DNA from: Natrinema sp. SYSU A 869
GTDB taxonomy: Archaea > Halobacteriota > Halobacteria > Halobacteriales > Natrialbaceae
Direction of reading: 5' to 3'
NCBI RefSeq assembly: GCF_019879105.1
Contig: NZ_CP082249.1
Coordinates: forward strand, 2,294,001 to 2,358,000
DNA: 64,000 nt
In this document: positions 23,102 through 61,745 of the stretch, piece after piece
Layout of the letters: every line of letters begins with the position of its first letter
Numbering within the stretch: the first letter of the stretch is position 1
Notes under the pieces: model-generated
The model's database searches: none
What the model saw: the letters and a program-made list of their open reading frames with translations, nothing else
Told to the model about the DNA's origin: nothing
Translations under genes and position numbers: made by a program

Positions 23102-23190
23102 GGCCGGTTTCTGCGAACCGCTCGATCGATCGCAGGTCACGAACGCTCAGTTGAGGGTGTCCGCGTAACATTCCGAATTGATCACTTGGC

Positions 23191-23390
23191 ATGCGGTGGC
23201 GCGCGCTGTGGGCCGTCCGAGTAACAACGAGGGCGGCCGATAATGCCGTGCGAGGGATGAGCGAACGCCGGTAGGCGTGAGCGTTAGCGCGGAACCGAAG
23301 GTTCCGCGAACCATGCGAACGGGCGCTACGCGCCCGTGAGCAGAAATCGGCTGGGGAGGGCGTGGCGATTCCCTGCCGCTATGATAGCAG
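23191..23390 (+). repeat. Structured dispersed repeat, copy C (reference copy)
   Basis: A hairpin-rich ~200-bp unit: GGCCGTCC/GGGCGGCC stem (from 23211), conserved GCGAGGGATGAGCGA, perfect stem CGCGGAACC/GGTTCCGCG (23288-23308), perfect stem ACGGGCGC/GCGCCCGT (23319-23337), then ATCGGCTGGGGAGGG and CCCTGCCGC. No coding potential. It lies between the convergent phosphohexomutase and stress-protein genes. Confidence 0.85.
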
Positions 23391-23478
23391 AACGCGCTGC
23401 GTTCTTCGATGCCAAGTTCCACTCAGTCGTCCCATTCATGTCTCTATCGAACAGTCACGATCTGCCACCGAGCAATCG

Positions 23479-34616: not shown

Positions 34617-34706
34617 CAGTCACGAACATCGCCTCGTTTTTCCGCAATCTCTGCTACCGCTGTTCGATATCGCTGGTCTACGTATCGGTCCGATCAATCA
34701 CCTGCC

Positions 34707-34906
34707 ATGCGGCGGCGCGCGCTGTCGGCCGTCCGAACGATAGTGAGGGCGGCCGCCGATGTCGTGCGAGGGATGAGCAGAGGAACGAAGTGACTGAGCG
34801 TTAACGCAGGACCGACGATCCTGCGAACCATCCAAACGTGTGCTTCGCACCCGTGAGCAGAAATCGGCTGAGGAGGGCGTGGCAATCCCCTGCCGCCACA
34901 ATAGAA
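34707..34906 (+). repeat. Structured dispersed repeat, copy D
   Basis: It matches copy C over its ends and linkers, but the hairpin stems differ. The first right-hand stem is CGCAGGA/TCCTGCG (34805-34825), where copy C has GCGGAA/TTCCGC, with compensating changes on both arms. The second is ACGTGTGC/GCACCCGT (34836-34854) with one mismatch. The left stem GGCCGTCC/GGGCGGCC is unchanged. Intergenic, with no gene inside. Confidence 0.85.
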
Positions 34907-34967
34907 GGATGCTCGCTGTCGTCGGATCCGATCTCAGATCAAATCGTTTCATTCACTGCCCTCCCGT

Positions 34968-42399: not shown

Positions 42400-43031
42400 A
42401 GGAACGAGATAGCTATAAATCCGGCGCGGCCTCTCAGTGGGAGAGTCGCGTCGTGACCACCCCCGTCTCGAGCGGCCGGTTTCGGTCGTCGATCACTGAC
42501 GGCGGACGTGGACGACCGTGAGACCGCCGGTTCCCGTCGTCTCGGTCCTGTGAACCGGGGACTCTCATTCCGGGCCGGATCGCCCGAGAAACGCGATGTT
42601 CTCGATTGCACTCTCGGAACCCGTCTCCGTCTCGAAACCCACACCGCAAAGGTGTAATTTTCATGCCATCATATGGCTACTTCTGAACTATTATTTAGTA
42701 ATCCTATAAATATAATATATACTATGTGTGCGTCCCCTATCGAACCAGTCTTCCTTTGTTGGGAAAAACCACCTTATATAGCCGTTTCAACGCTCTACTA
42801 TCGCTTTGACTAGCCCGATAGCCCTGAAAACAGAATCGCTATTATCCAGATAACTGAGCGTGTATCGACTGTCATAAGAATTATTTTTGCACCCCGTGGA
42901 TGTAATATCCACCACAAAAGTCACAAATTTTATAACCTTCTGGTCGGATTGTAGTGCGAGAGGGGGTCGAACTCCTCGGCGTTCCAAGTGGACGGAGTAC
43001 AGTCTCGTTCGCTGGGAGCGAGAATCACACC
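42400..43031 (+). promoter_or_regulatory. Promoter region of the cellulosome-like cluster
   Basis: This 632-nt gap has no convincing gene. From 42660 it becomes unusually AT-rich (AACTATTATTTAGTAATCC, ATAAATATAATATATACT). A TATA box TTTATAACC lies at 42929-42937, 95-103 nt upstream of the first GH5 ATG, so the transcript should carry a leader of about 75 nt. Just upstream of that TATA box, GTGGAT-GTAAT-ATCCAC (42896-42912) is a perfect inverted repeat, a candidate site for a carbon-source regulator. Confidence 0.5.
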
Positions 43032-44891
43032 ATGTCAGAGAATACGAACCCAACCGATTCAGAGGCACAGTCGAATAGCGCCAGTCGGGACAGCTCGACG
43101 TCACGCCGAACGATACTGCAGGCCACGGGGACGAGCGTGCTCGCAGTCGGCGGTCTCGGTAGCATCGCGGGCTCTGCAGTGGCCCAAGAAGCCACCCTCC
43201 CGCCGTTAGCCCGAGACGGAAACAAGATCGTCGATCCGAGCGGAAACGAAGTCATCCTTCGGGGAGTGAACATCGCCGATCCGGGCGAACAGAGCCGGCA
43301 GTGGCGGGGTCAGACCGCTCCCGAGACGTTCGAACTAGCCACCGACGAGAGCCAGGGGTGGCATACCAACATCGTCCGGGTACCGGTAATGCCTTCGTTC
43401 CTCGCGGCCGGGACGCGCGCCCCCGCACCGCACGAGATGCCCCACGGCGACGACTGGGGTCCGGCCCTGCCGGGACAGTTCGATAGAACCGACGTCAGGT
43501 GGTACTGTCAGACCTATCTCGACGATCTCGTCGAACTCGGTGCCCAGCGCGGCGCCTATGTGATGATCGACTACCACCGTCACTACCCGATCTTCCATCA
43601 GGAGGACCACAAGAACCACGGTGTCGATGGGAACGTCTGGCAGTGTTCGTCCGACGGGGGCGAAGACTGGCGAAATCCGGAGGTCTGTGGCGAGCGCGGC
43701 GTACTCTGGCACGGTGAGGACCAGGTCGACGAGATCTGGAACTTGATCGACGAACAGAACATTCTCGAGGCGTTCGACCTCGAGGAAGACGACATCTATC
43801 TCGAGCCCCCGGAGATTACGAACGCGCTCGACGAGGAGTTACACCTGTTCTGGGAGGTCGTCGCCGACCGATACGCCGAGGACGACCACGTGATCTTCGA
43901 CGTCTACAACGAGCCGACCGGCCCATACGGCGGCGACTGGGGCGGCCCACAGCGACAGGCGGGCGAACTCTCCGATCCGGCGGTAGCTCCCGGCGAGGGA
44001 GATGCGAACGATTACGACGCCGCTCACGAGGACATGAAAGCCTGGTACGACCTGTGGGTCGATCGCGCCCAGCCGTGGGTTGACACGGTCGAGAACAACG
44101 CGCCCGGTCACCTGATTACGATCGGGAGTCCACGGTGGAGCCAGTACACCTACTGGGCACCGTACAACGAGTTCGATGCCGAGAACATGTGTTATACCGG
44201 CCATGTCTACACGCAGGACGGCCTGCGGCCGCTCACGAAGTACTTCGGCGAACCGTCCGAACACGTCCCGGTCTTCTTCAGTGAGTTCGGGTGGATCGAA
44301 GGCGGCGGCAAGCACGTCGATACGCCCTGGATGGACTGTAGCGGCGAACACGGTGGCGACTGTGAGCCCTATATTCAGGAGTACGAGGAGTTCATCAAGA
44401 ACTACGACGTCCACCCGCTGGCGTGGTCGTTCGACCACACCTATGAGCCGAATATGTTCGAGCACGGGACGCCGGGAGCGAACGACGGCGCGAAGGGTGC
44501 CGACGACTGGATGAACTACCTGAACGACGAGACGCCCGGCGTCTGGTGGCACGAACTGAACCAGGAACTAGCCGGCGACCGCGACACCTTCGCGCCCGGC
44601 GAGGACCCGTACCCGGACGCCGACAACGGGAAGAACGACAAGCACGTCGGTCCCGGTCCGATCGACGGTGACGAGACGATCTCGGTCGGCGACCACGAGG
44701 CACGGGATACGAACGACGACGGTCTGTACAACGACGTCGACGGAGATGGAGAGACGACACACGAAGACGTCAACGCCTTCTTCGAGAACCTCGAGTCCAA
44801 CGGCGTCCAGAACAACCCTGACGCCTTCGACTTCGACGAGAACGGTCAAATCGGCTTCTCGGACGTTCTCGATTTGCTTCGTCGAACCTAA
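43032..44891 (+). CDS. Exported GH5 glycoside hydrolase with dockerin-like tail (1)
   Basis: A 619-aa protein. Tat signal SRRTILQAT (Arg25-Arg26), processing probably near AVAQ (residue 52). The GH5 domain spans about 55-510: VILRGVNIADP, a metal- or substrate-side YHRHYP, acid/base Glu294 in VYNEPTGPYG, IGSPRWSQ, and nucleophile Glu418 in FSEFGW. A Cys/His/Trp-rich insertion (190-240) is unusual. A dockerin-like module (547-619) has calcium loops DVDGDGETTHED and DFDENGQIGFSD. Probable beta-1,4-glucanase. It heads the cluster, 165 nt before the scaffoldin gene. Confidence 0.88.
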   Translation: MSENTNPTDSEAQSNSASRDSSTSRRTILQATGTSVLAVGGLGSIAGSAVAQEATLPPLARDGNKIVDPSGNEVILRGVNIADPGEQSRQWRGQTAPETFELATDESQGWHTNIVRVPVMPSFLAAGTRAPAPHEMPHGDDWGPALPGQFDRTDVRWYCQTYLDDLVELGAQRGAYVMIDYHRHYPIFHQEDHKNHGVDGNVWQCSSDGGEDWRNPEVCGERGVLWHGEDQVDEIWNLIDEQNILEAFDLEEDDIYLEPPEITNALDEELHLFWEVVADRYAEDDHVIFDVYNEPTGPYGGDWGGPQRQAGELSDPAVAPGEGDANDYDAAHEDMKAWYDLWVDRAQPWVDTVENNAPGHLITIGSPRWSQYTYWAPYNEFDAENMCYTGHVYTQDGLRPLTKYFGEPSEHVPVFFSEFGWIEGGGKHVDTPWMDCSGEHGGDCEPYIQEYEEFIKNYDVHPLAWSFDHTYEPNMFEHGTPGANDGAKGADDWMNYLNDETPGVWWHELNQELAGDRDTFAPGEDPYPDADNGKNDKHVGPGPIDGDETISVGDHEARDTNDDGLYNDVDGDGETTHEDVNAFFENLESNGVQNNPDAFDFDENGQIGFSDVLDLLRRT

Positions 44892-45056: not shown

Positions 45057-47306
45057 ATGAACGACGACATCGATACGCACGACGAGGAACAGTTCGCCGA
45101 AACCGATCGCCCGACGGACACGTCCACATCACGACGCACCTTCATGCGGGCCGCCGGTGCCAGTGCGGGTGCACTCGCACTCGGGACGTCGACGGTCGCG
45201 GCCCAAGCAGACAGCCCGACGGTGACGGTCGACATCGCCGACGAACAGATTCAATCCGGTGAGACGACGACTGCGACGGTCCGGCTCGAGAACTCCCCTG
45301 TCGGTTCGATCGGCTCTGCCGTCGAAATCGCGCTCGATCCGGACGTCGCCCAGATCACCGAAGTAGAAGGTGGTGACTACTTCCCGGAGAGCCCCCTCGA
45401 TTTAGAGGAGAGCGTCAACGAGGATATCGAAGAGGCGGGTGGCTCCGTCTCGCAACTCCGTGTCCAGCCGTACGCGCCGGATGGAATCAACGAGACCGGG
45501 TACGAGGTGGCGACCTACCACCTCGAGGCTCAGGGTGAGGGCACCACTGAGATCGAGCTCGTGGATATCATGCTGACCATTCCCGACGGAGACAATATCT
45601 ACGGCGCCAACTACGATGCATCGACACTGACCGTCGGTGACGTCATCGATGAGCCCGTCACGCCCGCAATGCCGTCGGACCTCGAGGTCGTCGCCGAGAA
45701 CGAGACATCGGTCGAGGTCGCGTGGAGCCCCGTGTCGAACGCTGTCGAATATGCCGTCTCAGTCGATGGCGAGCAGGAATCCACGACGACCTCGAGTAGC
45801 GCAACTATCACTGGACTCGAGGCAGACACCACCTACGAGATCGGTGTCAGCGCTCTCGGCGAGGGCGACACGATGTCCGAGACGGTGACGGTTCAGGCGA
45901 CGACGGTCACCGGTGCGGAGCCGGAGACGCCCACGCTCACGGTCAACCTCGACGATGCGGTGATCGATCCGGGCGAGACGACGGCCGTCGACCTCGGCCT
46001 GAGCGAAGCGCCGGACGGTGTGGTCGGATTCACTATTGAGGTCGGTATCGATCCAGACGTTGCGACCTTCGCCGATGCCGAACTCGGCGAACTGTTTGTT
46101 GACGCTCAGGAGATGTTCAAGACCGTCGAGGTCGAAGACGACTACGCGAAACTCAAGGCGCTCGATCCCGTCGACGCTGGGACCACTGACATCGAGTTCG
46201 GTCGGATCGACCTCGAGGGTGTGGCAGACGGCGAAACCGTCGTCGATGTCGACATTATCCGACTCGAGGACAATGTTGACAACGTTGCTATCGAACCGAC
46301 GGTCGAAGAGGCGATGCTCACCGTCGGTGACGGCGAGCCGGACAGCAAACCGCCGAGCGTCCCCGAGGATCTTGAGGTCGTCGCCGAGACTGAAACGTCG
46401 GTCGAGGTCGCGTGGAGCACCGATCCGAACGCCATCGAGTACAACGTCTCGGTTGATGGCGAGCAGGAAACAACCACGACCGCGAGCAGCGCCACCGTCA
46501 CTGACCTCGAGTCCGGTACCACCTACGAGATCGGTGTCAGCGCCGTCGGTGCGGACGACACGGAGACCGACGCCGCGACGGTTACTGCCACGATCGCAGA
46601 AGCCAATACGCCGCCGAGCACGCCCGAGGGACTCGAGGTCGTCGACGAGACCGAGACATCGGTCGAGGTTGCATGGAGTTCCGATCCGAACGCCGTCGAG
46701 TACAACGTCTGGGTTGACGGCGAGCAAGAAACTACCCTGAGTTCGACCAGTACCACTGTCACCGACCTCGAGTCCGGTACCACCTACGAGATCGGTGTCA
46801 GCGCCGTCGGTGAAGACGGCACGGAGACCGACGCCGCGACGGTTACTGCCACGACCGCGGACACGGACGATGGCGACGGAAATGACGGCGACTACCCCGA
46901 GTGGGACACTAACACGCTCTATCAGGAAGGCGACCACGTCCACTGGAACGGTGAGAACTGGGTCGCACAGTGGACGAACAAGGACAAAGAGCCCCGCTAC
47001 GAGGACCTCTACGCGTGGGAACCGGTCGACGGCGAGATTCCGCTCGAGGTAGACCACTTGGCGACGATCGATCCGAGCGCTACAGATGTCGACGCCGGCG
47101 AGCGCATCGACGTCCGGGCGACGGACAACACCCCCGACGATATCTGGATTGACGGACTTCAGTGGGACTTCGATGACGGAACGACTGCCAGCGGCTGGCA
47201 CGCCGGCCATTCCTTTGATTCCAGTGGGGCCTACACGGTGACGCTCACTGCGACGGACCAGCGGGGACGCGAGACCACCCACGAGGTCGAGATCACGGTC
47301 GCCTGA
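45057..47306 (+). CDS. Scaffoldin-like protein: two cohesin-like modules, FnIII x3, CBM5/12, PKD
   Basis: A 749-aa Tat-exported protein (SRRTFMRAAG; cleavage near residue 50) without a catalytic domain. Cohesin-like module 1 (54-196) shows VTVDIADEQIQSGETTTATV, IALDPDVAQITEVEGGDYF and the strand YEVATYHLEAQGEGTTEIEL; module 2 (292-425) shows the same order with VGIDPDVATFADAELGELF. FnIII modules lie at 203-284, 433-514 and 519-600. A CBM5/12-type module (613-657) has six Trp/Tyr including WDTNTLYQEGDHVHWNG and WVAQW. A PKD-like domain ends the protein (664-749). GGAG 8 nt before the ATG is a Shine-Dalgarno. No anchor helix, dockerin or SLH domain is seen. The cohesin reading is from pattern, not a profile search. 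Confidence 0.78.
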   Translation: MNDDIDTHDEEQFAETDRPTDTSTSRRTFMRAAGASAGALALGTSTVAAQADSPTVTVDIADEQIQSGETTTATVRLENSPVGSIGSAVEIALDPDVAQITEVEGGDYFPESPLDLEESVNEDIEEAGGSVSQLRVQPYAPDGINETGYEVATYHLEAQGEGTTEIELVDIMLTIPDGDNIYGANYDASTLTVGDVIDEPVTPAMPSDLEVVAENETSVEVAWSPVSNAVEYAVSVDGEQESTTTSSSATITGLEADTTYEIGVSALGEGDTMSETVTVQATTVTGAEPETPTLTVNLDDAVIDPGETTAVDLGLSEAPDGVVGFTIEVGIDPDVATFADAELGELFVDAQEMFKTVEVEDDYAKLKALDPVDAGTTDIEFGRIDLEGVADGETVVDVDIIRLEDNVDNVAIEPTVEEAMLTVGDGEPDSKPPSVPEDLEVVAETETSVEVAWSTDPNAIEYNVSVDGEQETTTTASSATVTDLESGTTYEIGVSAVGADDTETDAATVTATIAEANTPPSTPEGLEVVDETETSVEVAWSSDPNAVEYNVWVDGEQETTLSSTSTTVTDLESGTTYEIGVSAVGEDGTETDAATVTATTADTDDGDGNDGDYPEWDTNTLYQEGDHVHWNGENWVAQWTNKDKEPRYEDLYAWEPVDGEIPLEVDHLATIDPSATDVDAGERIDVRATDNTPDDIWIDGLQWDFDDGTTASGWHAGHSFDSSGAYTVTLTATDQRGRETTHEVEITVA

Positions 47307-47526: not shown

Positions 47527-47592
47527 AGTACCAATATGCGGCGAATCGCAGACACTGCGGACGAAGACACGCGAATCAGTGAGGAAACACCA

Positions 47593-49650
47593 ATGCAATC
47601 GCACGATACCACACAGCAGACGGACGAATCGACAGCAACGAACGAGAACACGCGCCGGAGCGTCCTTGCGCAAGCGGAGACCGACGGAACGTCGCCGATC
47701 ACTCTCACTCGGCGCAACGTGATGCGAACGACTGCTGCCGCGGGCGTTGCCGGCCTCGGACTGAGCGCCGGCTTCGCCGGTACTGCGGCAGCCGGAGGGA
47801 TCGACGAGTTCCAGAACCTGACGGTCAGCAGCGATAACCGGATCGTCAACGAGGACGGCGAGACGTTCAAGATGCGGGGGCTCAGCATTCCCGATCCGAA
47901 GCGACTCCACCGGACGCGGAACCTTCGCGGGAAGACGCCGGAACAGCTCCTCGATATGGTGACGAACAACGAGGCGGGCTGGCACCCGCGGGTCATCCGC
48001 GTTCCCGCCCAACCACAGGACATCGGCGAACATCCGATGGGTCACACCGGGCCCGAGTACGAATACGGCGAACTCGAGTCTCCGCAGGCGGTCGACAGCG
48101 ACCGGCGGAAGCAACGGCCGGCGCAGCCGTCGGCGTTCACGCAGGCGGAACTCGAGGACTATCTCGACAACTACTACGAACCGATCGTCGAGCGCTGCAA
48201 GGAGCGTGGCGTCTACTGCATCATCGACTATCACCGGCACTGGCACGAGCAGCCACCGGGCATCGAGCAGCCCTCGTACGCCGAGAACCACTTGCCGTAC
48301 AACAGCGACTACACGAACTACTGGGCGTACAACAGCCACGAGATGTTCGGCGAGGACGAACCGGGTTCCTGGGGGTACGTCGATCAGACGTACATCGAGA
48401 ACACCCCTGGCGACGATTACGTCGAGGGTCTCAACGAGGGCAACCTCGAGGGAACGCCGTACGCGTACGAGAACTGGACGGTCAACCAGGAGTTGCTCGA
48501 CGAGGTCCTCATGTTCTGGGACGAGGTAGCCGAGCGGTACGCCGACGAGCCTCATGTGATCTTCGAACCGTACAACGAGCCGACCGCACCGGGTATCTGG
48601 GGTCCCGTCGACGGCTGTGGAGCATTCAAACAGAAGCCCCTCTGGGACACGTTCCTCGACGACTTCATGGGCCCGATCATTGAGAAGATCCGAGAGTACC
48701 AGTCCGACCGCGTTCTGCTGGTCGGCGTCCCCGGCTGGTGTCAGTCGGTCCAGGCGCTCCACTGGCGGAACTTCAACGACGCGGGCTACGACAACATCGC
48801 CGTCACCTGGCACAACTACGCGGGCCACGACGTTAGCCAGATGAACAACTGGTTCAACGACACGGACTACCAGAGCCCCGAGGCTGTCGAGGCCGAAACC
48901 GGGGAGGAACTCGAGAGCCCGTACCTCCCGGTGGACGACGACCCCTACGAGCCAGCATGCTACGGCTGGGAGGCCTATGAGGCGGCCGGGCTTCAGAACG
49001 CGATGGACCATCACCCCGTCGCTATCACCGAATTCGGCTGGATCAACAACGCGGACGTCTCCCATTGGCTGCGCGGAACGACCACCGGTCAGGGCACGCT
49101 CCCCGAATACGGCGTTCCCTTCCTCGATCAGGTCGAGCAGGACGACCGAATCAGCTGGGTCGGCTGGTGTGCTGACGTCCGCTGGCTGCCGAAAATGTTC
49201 GAGGTTCCGTGGGAGACCGAAGAGGGCGAACTCGACCTCGTCAACGACAACTTCTACGACACGTCATTTGAGGACATTCCGGTCGGTTGCGAAGACCCAC
49301 CCTGTGAGTGGACCCTGATCGGTGGCGAGGACAGTGGCGTGTACCTCAAGCAGATGCTCGGGGAGCACAAGGACGATACGGTGCCGTTCGACACGAGGAC
49401 CGTCGGCGACCCTGAAGATCCCGACGGCGACGAGACGATCTCGGTCGGCAGCCACGAGGCCCAAGACACGGACGACGACGGCCTGTACGAAGACGTCACC
49501 GGCGACGGGGAGACGACCCACGAGGACGTCGACGCCTTCTTCGAGAACCTCGAGTCCGACGGCGTCCAGGACAACCCCGGACAGTTCGACTTCGACAAGA
49601 GTGGACGGGTCAGCTTTGCGGACGTCATCGAGTTGCTGCGGAAGATCTGA
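47593..49650 (+). CDS. Exported GH5 glycoside hydrolase with dockerin-like tail (2)
   Basis: A 685-aa protein with Tat motif TRRNVMRTTAAAG (Arg40-Arg41) after a long polar head. GH5 domain about 75-600: FKMRGLSIPDP, YCIIDYHRHWHE, acid/base Glu329 in EPYNEP, WHNYAGHD and nucleophile Glu480 in ITEFGW. A region of about 100 residues between YHRH and the acid/base (220-300, rich in Tyr/Asn) is inserted relative to gene 4 of the set. The tail (about 613-685) is dockerin-like with loops DVTGDGETTHED and DFDKSGRVSFAD. I chose ATG 47593 over 47536 because the TATA box lies too close to the latter and GAGG precedes the former. Confidence 0.88.
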   Translation: MQSHDTTQQTDESTATNENTRRSVLAQAETDGTSPITLTRRNVMRTTAAAGVAGLGLSAGFAGTAAAGGIDEFQNLTVSSDNRIVNEDGETFKMRGLSIPDPKRLHRTRNLRGKTPEQLLDMVTNNEAGWHPRVIRVPAQPQDIGEHPMGHTGPEYEYGELESPQAVDSDRRKQRPAQPSAFTQAELEDYLDNYYEPIVERCKERGVYCIIDYHRHWHEQPPGIEQPSYAENHLPYNSDYTNYWAYNSHEMFGEDEPGSWGYVDQTYIENTPGDDYVEGLNEGNLEGTPYAYENWTVNQELLDEVLMFWDEVAERYADEPHVIFEPYNEPTAPGIWGPVDGCGAFKQKPLWDTFLDDFMGPIIEKIREYQSDRVLLVGVPGWCQSVQALHWRNFNDAGYDNIAVTWHNYAGHDVSQMNNWFNDTDYQSPEAVEAETGEELESPYLPVDDDPYEPACYGWEAYEAAGLQNAMDHHPVAITEFGWINNADVSHWLRGTTTGQGTLPEYGVPFLDQVEQDDRISWVGWCADVRWLPKMFEVPWETEEGELDLVNDNFYDTSFEDIPVGCEDPPCEWTLIGGEDSGVYLKQMLGEHKDDTVPFDTRTVGDPEDPDGDETISVGSHEAQDTDDDGLYEDVTGDGETTHEDVDAFFENLESDGVQDNPGQFDFDKSGRVSFADVIELLRKI

Positions 49651-49832
49651 GCGTCACTCAGTGAGTGGCGGACTGGTGACGGAGTCGGAACGCGTTCGCG
49701 TCGGGGAACCAGCTGTTGGGGACCCGGGGACGCTCACGGGCCTTCCGGTCCGTGAGCAAGCGTTCTGTCTGCACACCATTTGAACGAACTATACGAAAAC
49801 AAATCCAAATTGACACGTTGGAATTAAAAGGT

Positions 49833-51989
49833 ATGAAAGAAACTCACTTGCACTTCAATAAGAACGGTTCGGACACGCCGAGGCGGACTCTCGGTCGCCG
49901 GTCCGTACTGGGATCGATTGCGGCACTCGGAACAGGCTACGTCGTCGCGTCGACGGCAGCGGCCCAATCGTGGTCGGACATCGACGATCCGTACTACGCG
50001 ACCCTCGCGGATGACCTCGCAGCACGCGGACTCCCGCAAGGGGAGTTCTGCTACGGTGACAGCGAGGCCGAGACGATGGACGCCTACGACGTCATCGGAG
50101 ATGTCGAGGCGACGGCGATTGAGGCCCCGGATGATCTCCCGTTCAACGAGGCGATGCGCCTCGAAGTCAGCGACGACGTCTCCGATCCGTGGGACGCAAT
50201 CCTGAACGCGACGGTCGAGGACCGCGGTGTGGAAGCGGGCGACGTCTTGTTGGGCGTCGCATATCTTCGGGAGGGGCCAGCGAGTGCAACCGAGGGCGTC
50301 GTTCAGTACACCGCCAAGGACGAGGACAACACCGAAACCAGCGAGGTGGTCAATGCTGCTACCCCCTCGCTCCCTCGCGAGTGGCGTCGGTTCTTCTTCC
50401 GAATCGAGTTCGACTACACGAGTGATCCCGGCGACTGGTGGACGGAGTTCTTCCTGGGATACGATTCGCAGACAGTCGATGTCGGCGGCCTGGCCCTGTT
50501 GCAGTTCGGGGGATCGGTTTCGACCGACGACCTACCCGACTCCGATATCGATTTCGGCTACGACGGCCGCGCTGAGGATGCAGCTTGGCGGCAAACGGCC
50601 CGCGAGCGGATCAACGAGATTCGTCGGGCACCGCTCACCGTCACGGCCACCGACGAGAACGGCGAGCCGATCCCCGACGCCGAGGTCGAGGTGGAGATGC
50701 AGGAGCACGAGTTCGGCTTCGGCAGCGCCGTCGCCGTCGATGAACTGCCCTCGAACGAGCAGTACCAGGACGTCTTCCTCGAGAACTTCAACGAGGCAGT
50801 CACGGAGAACGGCCTCAAGCGGGGCGCGTGGGACGGCGAGTTCGGCTCGAGCTTGGGCCCCGAGAATACGACGGCCGCGGTCGATTGGCTCAATCAGCAC
50901 GATGTCCCGACTCGAGGGCACACGCTCCTGTGGGGGACGTACGACGCCATGGGCGTCGATACGGGCCAGTCCGAGTCAGAAATCGTCGCGGAGATCGAGA
51001 GCGCGATCCGCGAGCGTGCCGCGGCGATGGACGGGCAACTGCTGGAGTGGGACATGCACAACCATCCGGTGATGTATCCCGAGATCACCGACGACCTCGG
51101 GCGAGAGCGGGTCGTCGACTGGTGGTCGGCGGCGATCGACGAGGCTCCTGAGACGCCCATGTGGGTCAATGAAGGTCGAGTCCTCTCGGCACGCAACGGC
51201 AACCGCGAGCCGTACCACGAGTACCTCGAGTGGCTCGAGGGCATCGAGGCCGATATTGGCGGTATCGGGTTCATGGGCCACTTCGGCGTGGATTACCTGC
51301 GCCCGCCAGCGGACCTCCTCGAACTCTTCGACGAGTTCGCCGCGTTCGACGTCCCGCTGAAGATCACCGAGTTGGACATTACCCTCAACGACTCGATGGA
51401 CGAAGACCAGATCGCGGCCCGTCGTGACTACATGCGCGATCTCCTCATCGCGGCCTACAGTCACGAGGCCCTCGAGAGCGTCCTCCACTGGGGATTCTGG
51501 GCGAATCAGCACTGGCGGCCGTCGGCGGCGCTGTACGACGAGGACTGGACGCTCCGTGCACACGGCGAGATCTATCGGGAGCTCGTCTTCGAGGAGTGGT
51601 GGACGGACGAGGCCGGATCGACCGACGCCGACGGGAAGTACACGACCGATGCGTATCTGGGCGACCACGAGGTGACGGTGACGGTCGGCGAGGCGCAAAC
51701 GACCGAATCCGTCTCCCTCACAGCTCCCGACGACACCGCCGAGCTGACGGTCGATATCGATAGGGCTACCGACACGATCGAGGTCGGCAAGTACGAGCCC
51801 CAGGACACGACTGGCGACGGTCGCTACGACGATGTCACCGGTGACGGGGAGACCACCCACGAGGACGTCACCGCGTTCTTCGAGAACCTCGAGTCCGATG
51901 GCGTCCAGACCAACCCTGACGCCTTCGACTTCGACGAGAACGGCCGCGTCGGCTTTGCGGATGTCCTCGCACTCCTTCGGGATGTCTGA
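49833..51989 (+). CDS. Exported GH10-like protein with dockerin-like tail, altered acid/base
   Basis: A 718-aa protein. Tat motif GRRSVLGSIAALG; N-terminal jelly-roll-like carbohydrate-binding region (about 60-235); short carboxypeptidase-regulatory-like strand domain (LTVTATDENGEPIPDAEV, 268-285); GH10-type barrel (about 290-590) with RGHTLLWG (361-368) and nucleophile Glu513 in KITELDI. Where GH10 enzymes have WDxxNE, this protein has WDMHNHP, His411 in place of the acid/base Glu. It may be inactive, act differently, or bind polysaccharide only. A beta-rich linker (593-645) leads to the dockerin-like tail (646-718). Confidence 0.8.
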   Translation: MKETHLHFNKNGSDTPRRTLGRRSVLGSIAALGTGYVVASTAAAQSWSDIDDPYYATLADDLAARGLPQGEFCYGDSEAETMDAYDVIGDVEATAIEAPDDLPFNEAMRLEVSDDVSDPWDAILNATVEDRGVEAGDVLLGVAYLREGPASATEGVVQYTAKDEDNTETSEVVNAATPSLPREWRRFFFRIEFDYTSDPGDWWTEFFLGYDSQTVDVGGLALLQFGGSVSTDDLPDSDIDFGYDGRAEDAAWRQTARERINEIRRAPLTVTATDENGEPIPDAEVEVEMQEHEFGFGSAVAVDELPSNEQYQDVFLENFNEAVTENGLKRGAWDGEFGSSLGPENTTAAVDWLNQHDVPTRGHTLLWGTYDAMGVDTGQSESEIVAEIESAIRERAAAMDGQLLEWDMHNHPVMYPEITDDLGRERVVDWWSAAIDEAPETPMWVNEGRVLSARNGNREPYHEYLEWLEGIEADIGGIGFMGHFGVDYLRPPADLLELFDEFAAFDVPLKITELDITLNDSMDEDQIAARRDYMRDLLIAAYSHEALESVLHWGFWANQHWRPSAALYDEDWTLRAHGEIYRELVFEEWWTDEAGSTDADGKYTTDAYLGDHEVTVTVGEAQTTESVSLTAPDDTAELTVDIDRATDTIEVGKYEPQDTTGDGRYDDVTGDGETTHEDVTAFFENLESDGVQTNPDAFDFDENGRVGFADVLALLRDV

Positions 51990-52058: not shown

Positions 52059-53597
52059 ATGACCATGAACGAACACGAGATACGACGAGAACGGAACAGC
52101 GACGAACCAACGACCCGCGGCGATCGATCGCCACCAAACGCAACCGACTCCGACGCGGTGAGCAGCCCTGAATCGAGTCGCACACGCCACTCCCGACGGG
52201 GCTTTCTCGCGATGGCCGGCGTCGGCACGGCCGGCGTAGCGGCCAGTGTGCTGGCTGACCCCGCACGCGCCGCTGACGGCACGGCCGACCGAGGAATCGA
52301 AACCCCGTGGCTCGAGCGCGACGGGAACGTGCTCCGCGATCCGACTGGAAACGAGGTCGTGCTCCGCGGTGTCAACGTGATCGACCCCGCGCGCACGGCA
52401 CGGTCGTGGCGTCGGCCACTCTCGGCGACGATTGATCACGCGACCGACCCCAACAGGAACTGGTATGCGCGGATTATCCGTATCCCAGTCCAGACCGGAG
52501 ACATCGTCTCCGTCGACACGGACGATGGCAGCGTGAGCGGTGAGCCCCAGAACGAAGTCGATCCGGGAACGTTCACCAAGGCACAGCTCGAGGCCTACAT
52601 CGAGCATCACCTCCGACCGGTCGTGGAGTACTGTACGGAGGTCGGCGTCTACTGCATCGTCGACTACCATCGCCACTCAGACACGAGTCTCGAGTACACC
52701 GATCCCGACCTCGACGAGGAGGTCCGGCTGTTCTGGAACACCGTCGCTCCCGAATTCGCCGACGACTCTCACGTTCTCTATGAGGTGTACAACGAGCCGA
52801 TCGGTCCCTACGCCGGCCAGGAGCCGGGCGAGGAGTACGACGTTCACGGTGCTGACGCCGAGCAGACCTGGCTCGAGTGGCGCGAGACCGCCCAGCCATG
52901 GGTCGACACCATTCGGGACCACGCCGAGCGCAACGTCGTCATCATCGGCTCACCGCGGTGGAGCCAGTACACCTACTGGGCACCACACCACGAGTTCAAC
53001 GGAGAAAATCTCGCGTACGCGGGCCACGTGTATGCCGGCCACGACGGGCTGCGGCCGCTCGGGGACTACTTCGGCGAGCCGTCCGAGCAGGTCCCAGTGT
53101 TCCTCACGGAGTTCGGCTATCAGGGCGACGCTGGGACCCCCCTCACGGGAACGACATCCGAAGACGGCGCGGCGTTCGAGGCGTTCTTCGATGAGTACGA
53201 CACCGTTCACCCCCAAATCTGGTGTTTCGACCCGGCCTGGCAGCCGATCATGTTCGATTCCGCCGACGATACCCAGAAGTGGGACCTCCTCGGCGGCGAG
53301 GACTACCAGGGAGAGTGGTGGCAGACGTATCTGGCCGATCGACGCACCGACGACCTCCCCGAGACGAACGGCGGTTCGGATTCGATTGCGGTCGGCGACT
53401 ACGAGGCCCGGGACACGGACGGAGACGGACGCTATGAGGATATCACCGGTGACGGGGAGACGACCCACGAGGACGTCGACGCCTTCTTCGAGAACCTCGA
53501 GTCCGACGGCGTCCAGACCAACCCCGATGCCTTCGACTTCGATGGGAACGGCCGAACCGGGTTCTCGGACGTCATCGAACTGCTTCGGAACGTCTAG
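52059..53597 (+). CDS. Exported GH5 glycoside hydrolase with dockerin-like tail (3)
   Basis: A 512-aa protein with Tat motif SRRGFLAMAGVG (Arg46-Arg47) and probable cleavage near residue 71. GH5 domain about 80-430: VVLRGVNVIDP, YCIVDYHRHSD, acid/base Glu246 in EVYNEPIGPY, GSPRWSQYTYWAP and nucleophile Glu351 in LTEFGY. It shares blocks with GH5 gene 1 (WSQYTYWAP, GLRPL..YFGEPSE) and is its closest relative here, without the insertion. Dockerin-like tail 440-512. It begins 69 nt after the GH10-like gene, probably in one operon with it. ATG 52065 is an alternative start. Confidence 0.9.
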   Translation: MTMNEHEIRRERNSDEPTTRGDRSPPNATDSDAVSSPESSRTRHSRRGFLAMAGVGTAGVAASVLADPARAADGTADRGIETPWLERDGNVLRDPTGNEVVLRGVNVIDPARTARSWRRPLSATIDHATDPNRNWYARIIRIPVQTGDIVSVDTDDGSVSGEPQNEVDPGTFTKAQLEAYIEHHLRPVVEYCTEVGVYCIVDYHRHSDTSLEYTDPDLDEEVRLFWNTVAPEFADDSHVLYEVYNEPIGPYAGQEPGEEYDVHGADAEQTWLEWRETAQPWVDTIRDHAERNVVIIGSPRWSQYTYWAPHHEFNGENLAYAGHVYAGHDGLRPLGDYFGEPSEQVPVFLTEFGYQGDAGTPLTGTTSEDGAAFEAFFDEYDTVHPQIWCFDPAWQPIMFDSADDTQKWDLLGGEDYQGEWWQTYLADRRTDDLPETNGGSDSIAVGDYEARDTDGDGRYEDITGDGETTHEDVDAFFENLESDGVQTNPDAFDFDGNGRTGFSDVIELLRNV

Positions 53598-53756: not shown

Positions 53757-55265
53757 ATGAGTTCCGATAATCGTGCGGGCGAGAAGCGGCCAACCGAACG
53801 AGTGGACCAGCGATCACTGCGACCAACGCGACGGGCGTTCGTGAAAGCGGCGGGCGTCGGGACGGCTGGCCTCGCACTCGGTGGGATGGGTGGATCCGCA
53901 GCGGCGGTCGATAATCCGACACCGCGCCTACAAACCGACGGGAAATGGATTGTTACCGGTGACGGACAGCGGGTGAAACCCCGTGGAGTCTCGCCGGCGT
54001 CGCTGGATTACCTCGAGTCGATACACCCCAAGAGTCAGCAGGAGATCCTCGAGCACGCGACCAACGGAACGGAGTGGCACCCGAACACGGTCCGACTGCC
54101 GGTCGTGGAAGACGCGGTCCACGAGCAAGGGATGCAGTACGTCGTCGATGAACTCCTGCGGCCGGCCGTCGACGTGCTCGCCGATCGGGGCGTCTACGCG
54201 ATGATCGACTTCCATCTCATTCGACCGTACGTGGAGGCCCTGAGTCACGGGGAAGGAATGGTCGAGGACGGCTGGGCGGACAGCCTTGATGACCTCGGCT
54301 TCGATCCCCACGTCGGCACCGACGACCTGTTGACGGAGTTCTGGAGCGCAGTGGCTCCGGCGTTCGCCGACGACGAAAACGTCCTCTTTGAACTGTTCAA
54401 CGAACCGACGCTCCCCGTCACGTGGTCGACCTACGGGGAACACGGTTCGGCGGTCCAGACGAGGGAAGACGAGTGGATGCTCTGGCGCGACACCGCCCAG
54501 TCGTGGGTCGACTCGATCCGGGACGAGGCACCCGAGACGCCGATCATCATCGGCTCACCCGACTGGACCTCCCGAACGAAATTCGCCGCCGAGTACCCCT
54601 TCGACGGGGAGAATCTGATCTATTCCGGCCACATATACCCGGACAACGGCCTCCCACATGACACGCTCGAGCGGGGAGACGAAGGTGATACGTACGAGGT
54701 GGGTCCGTTCGATCCCGAGTACGGTGCGCCCGCCGAGGAGGTCCCCGTTATCATTACCGAATTCGGCTGGGATCCCGACGAAGACTTCCGAGAAAGCGTC
54801 GAATTCGGCACGACGAGCGGGTGGGGCGAACCCGTCCGCGAGTGGCTAGAGTCCTACGAGAACATGGGCTGGATCGCCTGGTGTTTCGACGACACGTGGG
54901 CACCAACGTTCTTCGACTCGCCCGGTGATGGGGCCGGTGAACCTTGGGAACTGAAAGACGGAGACGAACAGATGGGCTGGTTCATCCGCGAGTGGCTCGA
55001 GGAGAGGAAAGACGACGTGATCGTCGGCGGTGGCAACGACGGGAGCGACACGATCGCGGTCGGCGACTACGAGGCGCGGGATACGGACGACGACGGGCTG
55101 TACAACGATGTCGATGGAGACGGGGAGACGACCCACGAAGACGTCGACGCGTTCTTCGAGAACCTCGAGTCCGGCGGCGTTCAGGACAACCCCGAGGAGT
55201 TCGATTTCGATGAGAATGGTCAAACCGGATTCGCGGACGTTCTCGAACTGCTCCGGCGGACCTGA
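53757..55265 (+). CDS. Exported GH5 glycoside hydrolase with dockerin-like tail (4)
   Basis: A 502-aa protein; Tat motif TRRAFVKAAGVG (Arg25-Arg26), cleavage near AAAV (residue 51). GH5 domain about 60-420: RVKPRGVSPAS, YAMIDFHLIRP, acid/base Glu216 in ELFNEPTLP, IIIGSPDW, GHIYPDNG and nucleophile Glu335 in ITEFGW. The substrate-side FHLIRP replaces the YHRH found in genes 1-3, so specificity may differ. Dockerin-like tail about 429-502. The preceding 159-nt gap holds ACATTTTATTTGG about 45-55 nt before the ATG, suggesting its own promoter. Confidence 0.9.
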   Translation: MSSDNRAGEKRPTERVDQRSLRPTRRAFVKAAGVGTAGLALGGMGGSAAAVDNPTPRLQTDGKWIVTGDGQRVKPRGVSPASLDYLESIHPKSQQEILEHATNGTEWHPNTVRLPVVEDAVHEQGMQYVVDELLRPAVDVLADRGVYAMIDFHLIRPYVEALSHGEGMVEDGWADSLDDLGFDPHVGTDDLLTEFWSAVAPAFADDENVLFELFNEPTLPVTWSTYGEHGSAVQTREDEWMLWRDTAQSWVDSIRDEAPETPIIIGSPDWTSRTKFAAEYPFDGENLIYSGHIYPDNGLPHDTLERGDEGDTYEVGPFDPEYGAPAEEVPVIITEFGWDPDEDFRESVEFGTTSGWGEPVREWLESYENMGWIAWCFDDTWAPTFFDSPGDGAGEPWELKDGDEQMGWFIREWLEERKDDVIVGGGNDGSDTIAVGDYEARDTDDDGLYNDVDGDGETTHEDVDAFFENLESGGVQDNPEEFDFDENGQTGFADVLELLRRT

Positions 55266-55359: not shown

Positions 55360-56847
55360 ATGACTTCGGACAAACGCACGACAGACGAGTACGGAATCGA
55401 TCGACAGAACGGATCGACGCGGCGCCGCTTCGTGAAAGCGATCGGTGCGGGCGCGATGGTTGCCCCTTTCGCCGCCAGTACGGCGGCGGCCGCGACGGAA
55501 CCGACGACCGACCCCGACGACCTCGCATACGTCGAGACGGACGGGACCGAGTTCGTCGTCGACGGCGAGCCGGTCTACTTCAACGGGGCGAACAACTTCT
55601 GGATAACAGATAATTACGAAGGAACGAAGCAGTGCGTCGACGACGTTTTCGATCTCTTTCAGGACCTGGGCATCGATCTCGTGCGGTTCTGGGCCCACGG
55701 CGAGGGCAAAGACGGCCCCCTCTCACTCCAGCCGGAACCCGGCGAATACAACGAGGACGCCCTCGAGAACCTCGATTACCTGATCGAGGCGGCCAGAGAG
55801 CGCGGCATCAGGCTCATCGCGACGCTCGTGGACAACTGGGACCACGAAGGCGGGATGCTCCAGTACGCCGAGTGGGCGGGTGCCGAGTCCCGCTATGAGT
55901 TCTACACGATGGACGAGACGCGCGGTATGTACCGCGACCACGTCGAGACGATCCTCACTCGGGAGAATACCTACAGCGGAATCGAGTGGCGCGAGGATCC
56001 GACGATCGCGCTGTGGGAACTGGCCAACGAACCGCGTCTCGAGCAAAGCGATGTGCCCGCGGAGATGGATAACCTCGAACCGCCCGAACATCGCGAAACC
56101 CTCGGCGACTGGTTCGCCGACATATCAGAATACATCAAGGACCTCGACGGCAACCACCTCGTCTCGACGGGGTCGGAGGGCCACTACTACGGAACCTGGG
56201 AGGACGACTACCCGAACGACGATTGGGATGGCCAGGACTACGTCGGCCACCACTCGATCGACACGATCGACGCCTGTTCGTTCCACCTGTATCCCGACCA
56301 CTGGGACTTCCCGCTCGAGGACGGGGCGGCGTACATCCGAGACCGTGTCGTCGACGCCCACGAGGAGATCGGCAAGCCCGCCTATCTCGGTGAATTCAAC
56401 GTCGATACACAGCAACACGGGCTCGAGACCAGAACCGAGTTCCTCGACGAGTGGTACGACGTCGCCGACGAGTATGACTGCAACGCCGTCCTCCCGTGGC
56501 AGGTCGTCCTCGAGGACACCGAGGACCACGACGGATTCCAGCTGTACGCGAGCGAATCCGGGCATCTCATCGAGGAGTACGCGGCGGTCGTCGCGGAGAA
56601 GAGCGGCGGTGAGGACAATTCCGACCCAGAGACGATCCCGGTCGGCGAGTACGAAGCCAGAGACACGACCGGCGACGGGCGCTACAACGACGTCACCGGC
56701 GATGGGGAAACCACTCACGAGGACGTCGACAGCTTCTTCGAACACATCGAGTCCGCCGGCGTTCAGGACAATCCCGAGCAGTTCGACTTCGATGAGAACG
56801 GTCGAATCGGGTTTTCCGACGTCCTCGAACTCCTTCGGCAAGTCTGA
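55360..56847 (+). CDS. Exported GH5 mannanase-like hydrolase with dockerin-like tail (5)
   Basis: A 495-aa protein; Tat motif TRRRFVKAIGAG (Arg21-Arg22), cleavage near TAAAA. The GH5 domain (about 55-415) is of another subfamily: FVVDGEPVYFNGANNFW, LVRFWAHGEG, acid/base Glu224 in WELANEPR, CSFHLYPDHW and nucleophile Glu345 in LGEFNVD. This set resembles endo-beta-1,4-mannanases (GH5 subfamily 7-like) rather than cellulases; the subfamily is inferred from pattern. Dockerin-like tail about 422-495 with EHIESAGVQ, slightly divergent from the others. It lies 94 nt after gene 4 and probably shares its transcript. Confidence 0.88.
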   Translation: MTSDKRTTDEYGIDRQNGSTRRRFVKAIGAGAMVAPFAASTAAAATEPTTDPDDLAYVETDGTEFVVDGEPVYFNGANNFWITDNYEGTKQCVDDVFDLFQDLGIDLVRFWAHGEGKDGPLSLQPEPGEYNEDALENLDYLIEAARERGIRLIATLVDNWDHEGGMLQYAEWAGAESRYEFYTMDETRGMYRDHVETILTRENTYSGIEWREDPTIALWELANEPRLEQSDVPAEMDNLEPPEHRETLGDWFADISEYIKDLDGNHLVSTGSEGHYYGTWEDDYPNDDWDGQDYVGHHSIDTIDACSFHLYPDHWDFPLEDGAAYIRDRVVDAHEEIGKPAYLGEFNVDTQQHGLETRTEFLDEWYDVADEYDCNAVLPWQVVLEDTEDHDGFQLYASESGHLIEEYAAVVAEKSGGEDNSDPETIPVGEYEARDTTGDGRYNDVTGDGETTHEDVDSFFEHIESAGVQDNPEQFDFDENGRIGFSDVLELLRQV

Positions 56848-61496: not shown

Positions 61497-61693
61497 ATGC
61501 GGTGGCACGCGCTGGGGCGCGGTTCATCGTCGACGAACCGCGACGCAACGCTGTGCGAGGGATGAACGAACGACCAGCGGGAGTGAGTGTTAGCGCGGAA
61601 TCGCAGGTTCCGCGAACAGTCGAACGGGTGCGCCGCACCCGTGAGACGAAATCGGTTGGGGAGGGGGTGGCAACTCCGTGTTACCACGATAGT
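61497..61693 (+). repeat. Structured dispersed repeat, copy E
   Basis: The left stem is CGCGGTTC/GAACCGCG (61518-61542), unlike the GGCCGTCC stem of copies C and D yet in the same place. The first right-hand stem, GCGGAATC/GGTTCCGC, includes a G-T wobble; the second is ACGGGTGC/GCACCCGT. Linkers GCGAGGGATGAACGAACG and ATCGGTTGGGGAGGG are conserved. Intergenic between the thioesterase and methyltransferase genes. Confidence 0.85.
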
Positions 61694-61745
61694 AGCGTAC
61701 TCGTCGGGTCAGTCACCCAACTACTCGCTTCGGAACGAACGGAAG

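Follow-up and report, generated by a model that had tools for sequence, protein, structure and literature searches.

A candidate cellulosome-type docking system in the haloarchaeon Natrinema sp. SYSU A 869 and its relatives

Introduction

Cellulosomes have been described from bacteria and fungi, and to our knowledge the cohesin of the archaeon Archaeoglobus fulgidus is not accompanied by a cellulase cluster. That cohesin (PDB 2xdh) resembles both of the modules reported here, but it is titled non-cellulosomal. In the accessible text of a screen of 305,693 prokaryotic genomes, cellulosomes are reported from bacteria only (PMC11557425), and a 2010 survey, again as far as its accessible text goes, reported none of the cellulosome components from archaea (PMC2838879). 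The accessible part of PMC9012536, citing Peer et al. 2009, states that archaea with such domains lacked large scaffoldins, and itself reports scaffoldin-like proteins with up to five cohesins from ANME archaea; multi-cohesin archaeal proteins, of which our locus holds another, are therefore not new as such. That text gives transporter binding proteins as common dockerin partners and names S-layer and dockerin proteins for ANME-2c; unlike at our locus, no cellulase cluster is mentioned in that part of it. The mannan cluster of Natronoglomus mannanivorans (PMC10963439, accessible text) contains GH5 and GH10 enzymes with dockerins, as ours does, and, as re-read below, it also includes an 8-cohesin scaffold, an anchored cohesin and a cohesin-dockerin protein. 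It differs in that its scaffold is fused to GH5 and lacks the cohesin clade that we call A, and in that most of its dockerins have the code TT/VT or TS/TS. No report of a haloarchaeal cellulosome was found in the literature searched, the scope of which excluded preprints and most subscription papers.

Here we analyze a 64,000-nucleotide stretch of the Natrinema sp. SYSU A 869 genome (hereafter the window), in which a protein with two cohesin folds is encoded among six enzymes with dockerin-like tails. Like simple clostridial cellulosomes, the locus combines a non-catalytic multi-cohesin scaffold and a putative carbohydrate-binding module (CBM) with clustered dockerin-tailed cellulases, and the cohesin and dockerin folds are shared; unlike them, it is archaeal, has a Tat signal, a CBM5/12-like module instead of CBM3 and two dissimilar cohesins, and its tails are without internal symmetry at the recognition positions. 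We regard it as part of a candidate cellulosome system of archaea, one whose kind is known and which is new to this domain of life and in several of its features. It is also larger than a preliminary description of this DNA had stated.

Results

Gene content of the locus

The scaffold protein with its domains and the six tailed enzymes (families assigned by Pfam) are as follows, with positions counted from the first letter of the window.

45057-47306, + strand: scaffoldin-like protein, 749 aa, with predicted Tat signal, Coh1, FN3, Coh2, two FN3, weak CBM5/12 and PKD
45216-45641, + strand: Coh1, clade A cohesin fold in which a helix separates strands 4 and 5
45660-45910, + strand: FN3 linker module between Coh1 and Coh2
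45930-46331, + strand: Coh2, clade B cohesin fold
46350-46600 and 46611-46861, + strand: further FN3 copies in the scaffold
46899-47018, + strand: weak CBM5/12 match (20.3 bits, cut-off 26.2), possible polysaccharide-binding module
47082-47300, + strand: PKD domain of the scaffold
42954-44891, + strand: GH5 enzyme, C-terminal dockerin tail at 44676-44888
47536-49650, + strand: GH5 enzyme, tail at 49435-49647
49716-51989, + strand: GH10-family protein, tail at 51774-51986
52059-53597, + strand: GH5 enzyme, tail at 53382-53594
53757-55265, + strand: GH5 enzyme, tail at 55050-55262
55360-56847, + strand: GH5 enzyme, tail at 56632-56844

All seven genes lie on the + strand with intergenic gaps of 65-229 bases, and each enzyme tail is about 70 residues long. 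The assignment of two cohesin folds in one protein plus six tailed GH5/GH10 enzymes is made on the basis of profiles and folds, not of library cut-offs. The motifs NEP and [STG]EF[GN], which we take to carry the two GH5 catalytic glutamates, are present in all five GH5 ORFs. For the GH10-family protein, the likelier start is an in-frame ATG 39 codons inside the ORF, before a Tat-like signal. At the site where we would expect the GH10 acid/base motif WDVVNE, this protein and its relative L075_15343 both read WDMHNH, and the enzyme may, judging by sequence, be altered or inactive. Among 10 further ORFs just outside the cluster, Pfam detected no carbohydrate-active families, the matches being to MFS, aminotransferase, DUF460, metallo-beta-lactamase fold, AAA and DUF7282/CARDB. 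Elsewhere, the window holds a repeat at 23181-23398, 34697-34915 and 61623-61703 (77-83% identical), of which two copies share a longer stretch.

Neither a dockerin nor a membrane segment was detected in the 749-aa scaffold. Its CBM5/12 score is exceeded by that of the related scaffold in genome G353 (24.0 bits; G numbers are our own genome labels), which is likewise under the cut-off. Searching the whole genome (5.67 Mb, 3 contigs) with the tails retrieved the six in the cluster and one distant copy (E 3e-11), with two further matches only at E 0.7, and a second full copy of the scaffold is absent from the same 5.67 Mb. Since other matches in the genome are few and no second full scaffold exists in it, the set of six tails beside a scaffold exceeds chance expectation.

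Cohesin folds and dockerin tails

The preliminary description had proposed, from motifs in the sequence, two divergent cohesin-like modules facing six near-identical dockerin-like tails. Both modules lie where it placed them, inside ORF 45057-47306; at about 31% identity Coh1 and Coh2 are as strongly divergent as it had claimed, and the three motifs it quoted are found in both, with LTVNL in Coh2 at the VTVxI pattern. AlphaFold models built on 60 haloarchaeal rows reached a pLDDT of 93.1 for Coh1 and 97.2 for Coh2. Foldseek matched Coh1 best to PDB entries 6kgc and 5lxv (E 3e-9), all 50 of the matches listed being cohesins, and Coh2 best to 5lxv (E 5e-9), with cohesins in 49 of the 50 matches listed and the adhesin domain 9ifr as the remaining one. 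In VIA comparisons, Z rose to 13.6 for Coh1 (2.9 A over 126 residues) and 15.3 for Coh2 (2.1 A over 127 residues), with values of 12.8 and 14.2, respectively, against the archaeal cohesin 2xdh. Because the lower VIA rows, among the matches listed, also include pilin, adhesin and hypothetical-protein domains, the predicted fold alone is not proof of function. A haloarchaeal cohesin profile reaches Scaffoldin C at E 3.6e-4, and 15 of the 38 haloarchaeal cohesins match PF00963 (lowest E 4.6e-6; Coh1 8.3e-4). Coh1 itself, at 20.0 bits, is below the PF00963 gathering cut-off of 24.1, and when the scaffold is scanned at full length against Pfam, Cohesin is unlisted up to E 1, but domain-wise scans and profiles did yield matches.

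The tails behave in a similar way. All 19 aligned haloarchaeal dockerins match PF00404 (Dockerin_1) at E up to 0.1, the best at 5.2e-7, and most Ca-ligand positions are kept in the window tails, with Thr at loop position 3 in several. The first window tail scores 19.4 bits, below the gathering cut-off of 22.9, and the full-length Pfam scan lists PF00404 in five of the six tailed enzymes (13.2-19.2 bits; P0003 is unlisted). Such sub-threshold scores of single window sequences may be a possible cause of missed annotation. Two clostridial dockerins, 2mte and 1daq, appear at E 2e-4 in a search with the tail profile, behind several other EF-hand proteins with better scores. Taken together, predicted folds and family profiles uphold the cohesin and dockerin assignments first made from motifs. 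His-Glu does occupy loop-1 positions 10-11 in all six tails, and the equivalent positions of loop 2 are, as described, Phe-Ala in three tails and Phe-Ser in three; calling the tails near-identical was an overstatement, given a mean pairwise identity of 0.77 and 72-85% identity to the first tail.

Distribution in the order

We searched 392 genomes of the order. Tail matches at E up to 1e-5 were present in 150 and cohesin-profile matches in 154 (with the best 10 cohesin candidates per genome scored); 139 genomes had both, 11 the dockerin only, 15 the cohesin only and 227 neither, a co-occurrence with a Fisher P of 9e-74 when genomes are treated as independent of shared descent. Coh1 as a lone query reached 22 of the 392 genomes, so a search with Coh1 only would understate the spread of cohesins. 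Tails matching at E 1e-22 or better occur in nine genomes, spanning three genera, and these are also the nine with Coh1 at E 4e-20 or better, both cut-offs having been picked after viewing the lists. Within Natrinema, the cluster is carried by six of the 20 listed genomes.

We considered and rejected the statement that every tailed genome has a cohesin: a more sensitive search gave a clear cohesin in one of the 11 tail-only genomes, and 10 still had no clear match. Two of these (G119 and G143, both of genus g57) hold seven and five dockerin matches with no clear cohesin by the sensitive search, and tails can thus occur without a recognised partner.

These counts bear on the function published for such tails in haloarchaeal mannanases and a GAG lyase, where they are regarded as substrate-binding modules. 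This is stated in PMC10963439 and repeated in PMC13260240 (accessible text of both), and the genomes with tails and no recognised cohesin would agree with it. However, the word "cohesin" is absent from the main text of PMC10963439 and from PMC13260240, as far as their accessible text goes, and cohesins are present in 139 of the 150 tailed genomes, which a protein partner fits better. Considering also that tails share a genome-wide code at a recognition position (see below) and that cohesin proteins are encoded inside the same clusters, we consider substrate binding a very improbable role for the tails.

Scaffolds and single-cohesin proteins in relatives

Cohesin and dockerin domain maps were drawn on 20 genomic stretches. 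Scaffolds have two cohesins in the window genome, G214, N. ejinorense, Halopiger, N. salsiterrestre and G211, and three in G353, G122 and G179; the G174 scaffold has at least five, its contig ending inside, and that of Natronoglomus has eight. Five of the genomes, namely G353, N. salsiterrestre, G211, G174 and Natronoglomus, also encode single-cohesin proteins close by. Except in G174, where the protein has a C-terminal hydrophobic segment instead, these have PGF-CTERM-like C-termini that score weakly (13.8-16.8 bits, cut-off 24.5), and a related protein of G166 lies above the cut-off (27.6 bits).

The position of the PGF-CTERM-like proteins, which adjoin the scaffold in G353, G211, N. salsiterrestre and Natronoglomus, would be expected if the tails docked enzymes on surface-anchored single cohesins and the scaffold were secondary. 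In the window genome, however, the only such anchor seen belongs to a PhoX pair elsewhere on the contig, with a different dockerin code, and we regard anchored singles as an unlikely main receptor.

In G166 (L088-L090), nine ORFs bear tails with other codes; near them are one protein with three cohesins and a dockerin, and two single-cohesin proteins. This is a further, separate system.

A genome-wide code in loop 1

We compared 66 tailed enzymes from the nine genomes, including 176 reciprocal-best orthologue pairs. The catalytic parts follow species descent, unlike the tail code. Tails of the same genome were on average closer than the orthologue's tail in 237 of 244 directed comparisons; these are non-independent and are restricted to pairs whose tails have the same length and whose catalytic parts share no more than 85% identity. 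At loop-1 positions 10-11, the code is HE in the window genome (6/6), G214 (5/5), N. ejinorense (7/7) and Halopiger (6/7), HA in G353 (11/11), HG in N. salsiterrestre (5/5) and G211 (3/4), and HD in G122 (9/9) and G179 (9/9). Overall, 61 of 63 equal-length tails bear their own genome's majority code; this fixed-position count leaves out three of the 66 tails, of length 63 or 64, whose letters are HG, HG and HA. Codes for G166, G174, Natronoglomus, Halococcoides and the window genome's own PhoX copy come from the sequences and from a pattern-based count, which set loop 1 in the wrong place in some rows ("DV" entries).

Loop-1 position 11 ranks first among 65 tail positions for genome signal, with agreement of 0.96 within and 0.18 between genomes (a gap of 0.77, against at most 0.18 when labels were shuffled 100 times), and it remains at the top with one genome kept per close pair. 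Positions 14 and 17 of the loop-1 repeat also rank in the top four, and the three together are consistent with one face of helix 1. Loop-2 positions 10-11 have a genome signal of only 0.05 and 0.13. Recognition residues had been proposed in both loops; for loop 1 the proposal gains independent support, position 11 carrying the strongest signal of the 65. Loop 2 carries almost none, and the data therefore lend no support to an equal treatment of the two loops.

Four-fold sites of the tails are 0.66 alike within genomes and 0.62 between Natrinema orthologues, compared with 0.73 for the catalytic parts of Natrinema orthologues. Because synonymous sites also show the within-genome likeness, tails have probably been replaced or converted together within a genome, and selection may have acted as well.

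Two cohesin clades and the receptor of the tails

In a tree of 60 cohesins, Coh1 from the nine scaffolds forms clade A (support 100/99), and Coh2/Coh3 fall on one branch side, clade B (94/88), together with three anchored single cohesins from G353, N. salsiterrestre and G211. Clade A is single-copy and in first position in all nine scaffolds of the window type. Clade B is duplicated in G353, G122 and G179 and occurs alone in a surface-anchored protein in G353, N. salsiterrestre and G211. On account of this family structure, Coh2 is the module that we consider most likely to be the tail receptor, while Coh1 may accept tails too or may have another partner.

In its strict form, with Coh2 as the only receptor and Coh1 turned to another ligand (for example, a cell-surface component that tethers the scaffold), this reading is one we hold tentatively, as slightly under an even chance. 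The separate, single-copy state of clade A and the duplication and anchoring of clade B favor it, as do the P-[ND]-G-[LV]-x-G-F stretch that clade B keeps and Coh1 lacks, the low conservation of Coh1 strands 5 and 6 (0.16 and 0.25, the least in the module) and the fact that the scaffold has no other visible anchor. Yet the 8-3-6-5 sheet, which we take to be the dockerin-binding sheet in clostridial complexes, is less conserved than the other sheet in both clades (0.42 vs 0.60 in clade A and 0.45 vs 0.66 in clade B, with strands assigned by order rather than superposition), and variability alone is therefore not a sign of lost tail binding. No second dockerin class, such as a separate partner of Coh1 might bring, was found beside the cluster in the mapped stretches.

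That both cohesins take the same tails, as interchangeable ports, is possible, if somewhat doubtful. All six tails have one code with no other dockerin class nearby, and in the predicted models Coh1 and Coh2 are both well-formed cohesins; however, the two are 31% identical, clades A and B stay apart in nine genomes of three genera, and the repeated cohesins of the Natronoglomus scaffold, by contrast, are nearly identical to one another. We would like to note that the Coh2-only and both-cohesins readings are sub-cases of a cellulosome-type assembly, and our confidence in each overlaps with that in the assembly.

With catalytic distance controlled, tail divergence co-varied with the Coh2 face (r 0.48, p 0.005; other sheet 0.23, p 0.08) and, for Coh1, with the other sheet (0.59, p 0.003) rather than the face (0.27, p 0.054). 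The tails co-varied with FN3 itself as well (0.52, p 0.015), and with FN3 divergence controlled neither cohesin face co-varied significantly with the tails in the nine genomes (0.18 and -0.02), which speaks against a Coh2-only receptor in so far as neither module stands out. As the signal vanishes with this control, co-variation was not used to choose between Coh1 and Coh2.

The Natronoglomus cluster re-read

The Natronoglomus mannanivorans scaffold is GH5 plus eight cohesins in 1768 aa. The accessible table in PMC10963439 lists a 1,755-aa GH5/CBM6 endoglucanase, then a 258-aa S-layer glycoprotein with two membrane helices and, among others, proteins of 759, 589, 741, 577, 815 (Dockerin/PKD) and 490 aa; ORFs of 258, 759, 589, 741, 577, 815 and 490 aa follow in the same order in our maps. 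Going by that part of the table, the published 1,755-aa endoglucanase is the GH5 fused to eight cohesins. What the table calls a 258-aa S-layer glycoprotein is an anchored cohesin, its end being PGF-like, and the 815-aa dockerin protein also bears a cohesin. These three proteins are encoded in L086:1074-7433 and L087:1956-4403. Mannan-grown cells are reported, in the accessible text, to have an extra external cell layer (PMC10963439), which may or may not be related to the docking system.

PhoX-linked pairs

A second arrangement is found in many genomes of the order, in which an enzyme with a C-terminal cohesin and dockerin is encoded beside a small cohesin protein (open frames mostly of 230-350 aa). 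The copy of this enzyme in the window genome belongs to the PhoX phosphatases (PF05787, E 4e-22); Pfam was run on this copy, and the enzymes of other genomes are termed PhoX-linked from their like layout. The window-genome pair (L092:7028-10526, on contig C3 near 1.42 Mb) consists of the phosphatase, which carries a cohesin and a dockerin, and an adjacent cohesin protein that is PGF-CTERM-like. The phosphatase frame appears broken inside the cohesin, with the dockerin in another frame, owing to either mutation or sequencing error.

In the cohesin tree, 12 small PhoX-linked cohesins fall on one branch side (98/91) and five enzyme-internal ones on another (99/97). Among the rows listed, most PhoX-linked dockerins have Tyr-Asp or close variants in both loops and are thus symmetric, whereas the window tails are asymmetric. 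We read the cellulase docking system as a putative recruitment of a PhoX-type cohesin-dockerin pair, the tree being unrooted and the direction unproven.

Discussion

We consider it likely that the locus encodes a small, secreted, cellulosome-type assembly. Sequences, predicted folds, gene neighborhood, co-occurrence and the genome-specific code were all directly seen, and from them we infer binding, orientation, substrate and secretion. In such an assembly, the 749-aa protein would be the primary scaffoldin, exported by Tat; it would hold polysaccharide through its CBM5/12-like module and offer cohesin ports into which the six GH5/GH10 enzymes would plug their Ca-binding C-terminal dockerins. 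Dockerin helix 1 would be the site of recognition, involving position 11 of loop 1 and probably positions 14 and 17 as well, and the tails of a genome would have one code in common. A single binding orientation would be expected rather than the clostridial dual mode, because the window tails lack the symmetry of the ancestral-looking haloarchaeal dockerin, which has Tyr-Asp in each loop. Two cohesins are few for six enzymes, and this counts against the cellulosome reading; the accessible text of PMC11557425 holds genomes whose largest scaffoldin has two cohesins to be unlikely to make conventional cellulosomes. Also on the negative side are the scores of Coh1 and the window tails below the Pfam gathering cut-offs, the weak CBM5/12 match, the tailed genomes with no clear cohesin, and the loss of tail-to-face co-variation under FN3 control.

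As to origin, a wider proposal, to which we give a little less than even weight, is that haloarchaea built their own cellulosomes out of a cohesin-dockerin pair of the archaeal surface, today found around the PhoX phosphatase, and did so more than once: in Natrinema and its relatives as clade A/B scaffolds and, on a separate occasion, in G174 and Natronoglomus as scaffolds fused to GH5, with at least five and with eight cohesins, respectively. Each lineage would keep one code across its enzymes by joint tail replacement, so that the code can shift between sister species.

If the cellulosome reading is true, cellulosome-type systems take in a further domain of life as well as conditions of very high salt, and the published haloarchaeal cellulase and mannanase clusters, in which the dockerin is called a substrate-binding module, need re-reading. 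The genome-wide code would offer a natural experiment on change of cohesin-dockerin specificity, with sister species that differ at one position in nearly every enzyme, and salt-proof docking pairs may be of practical use.
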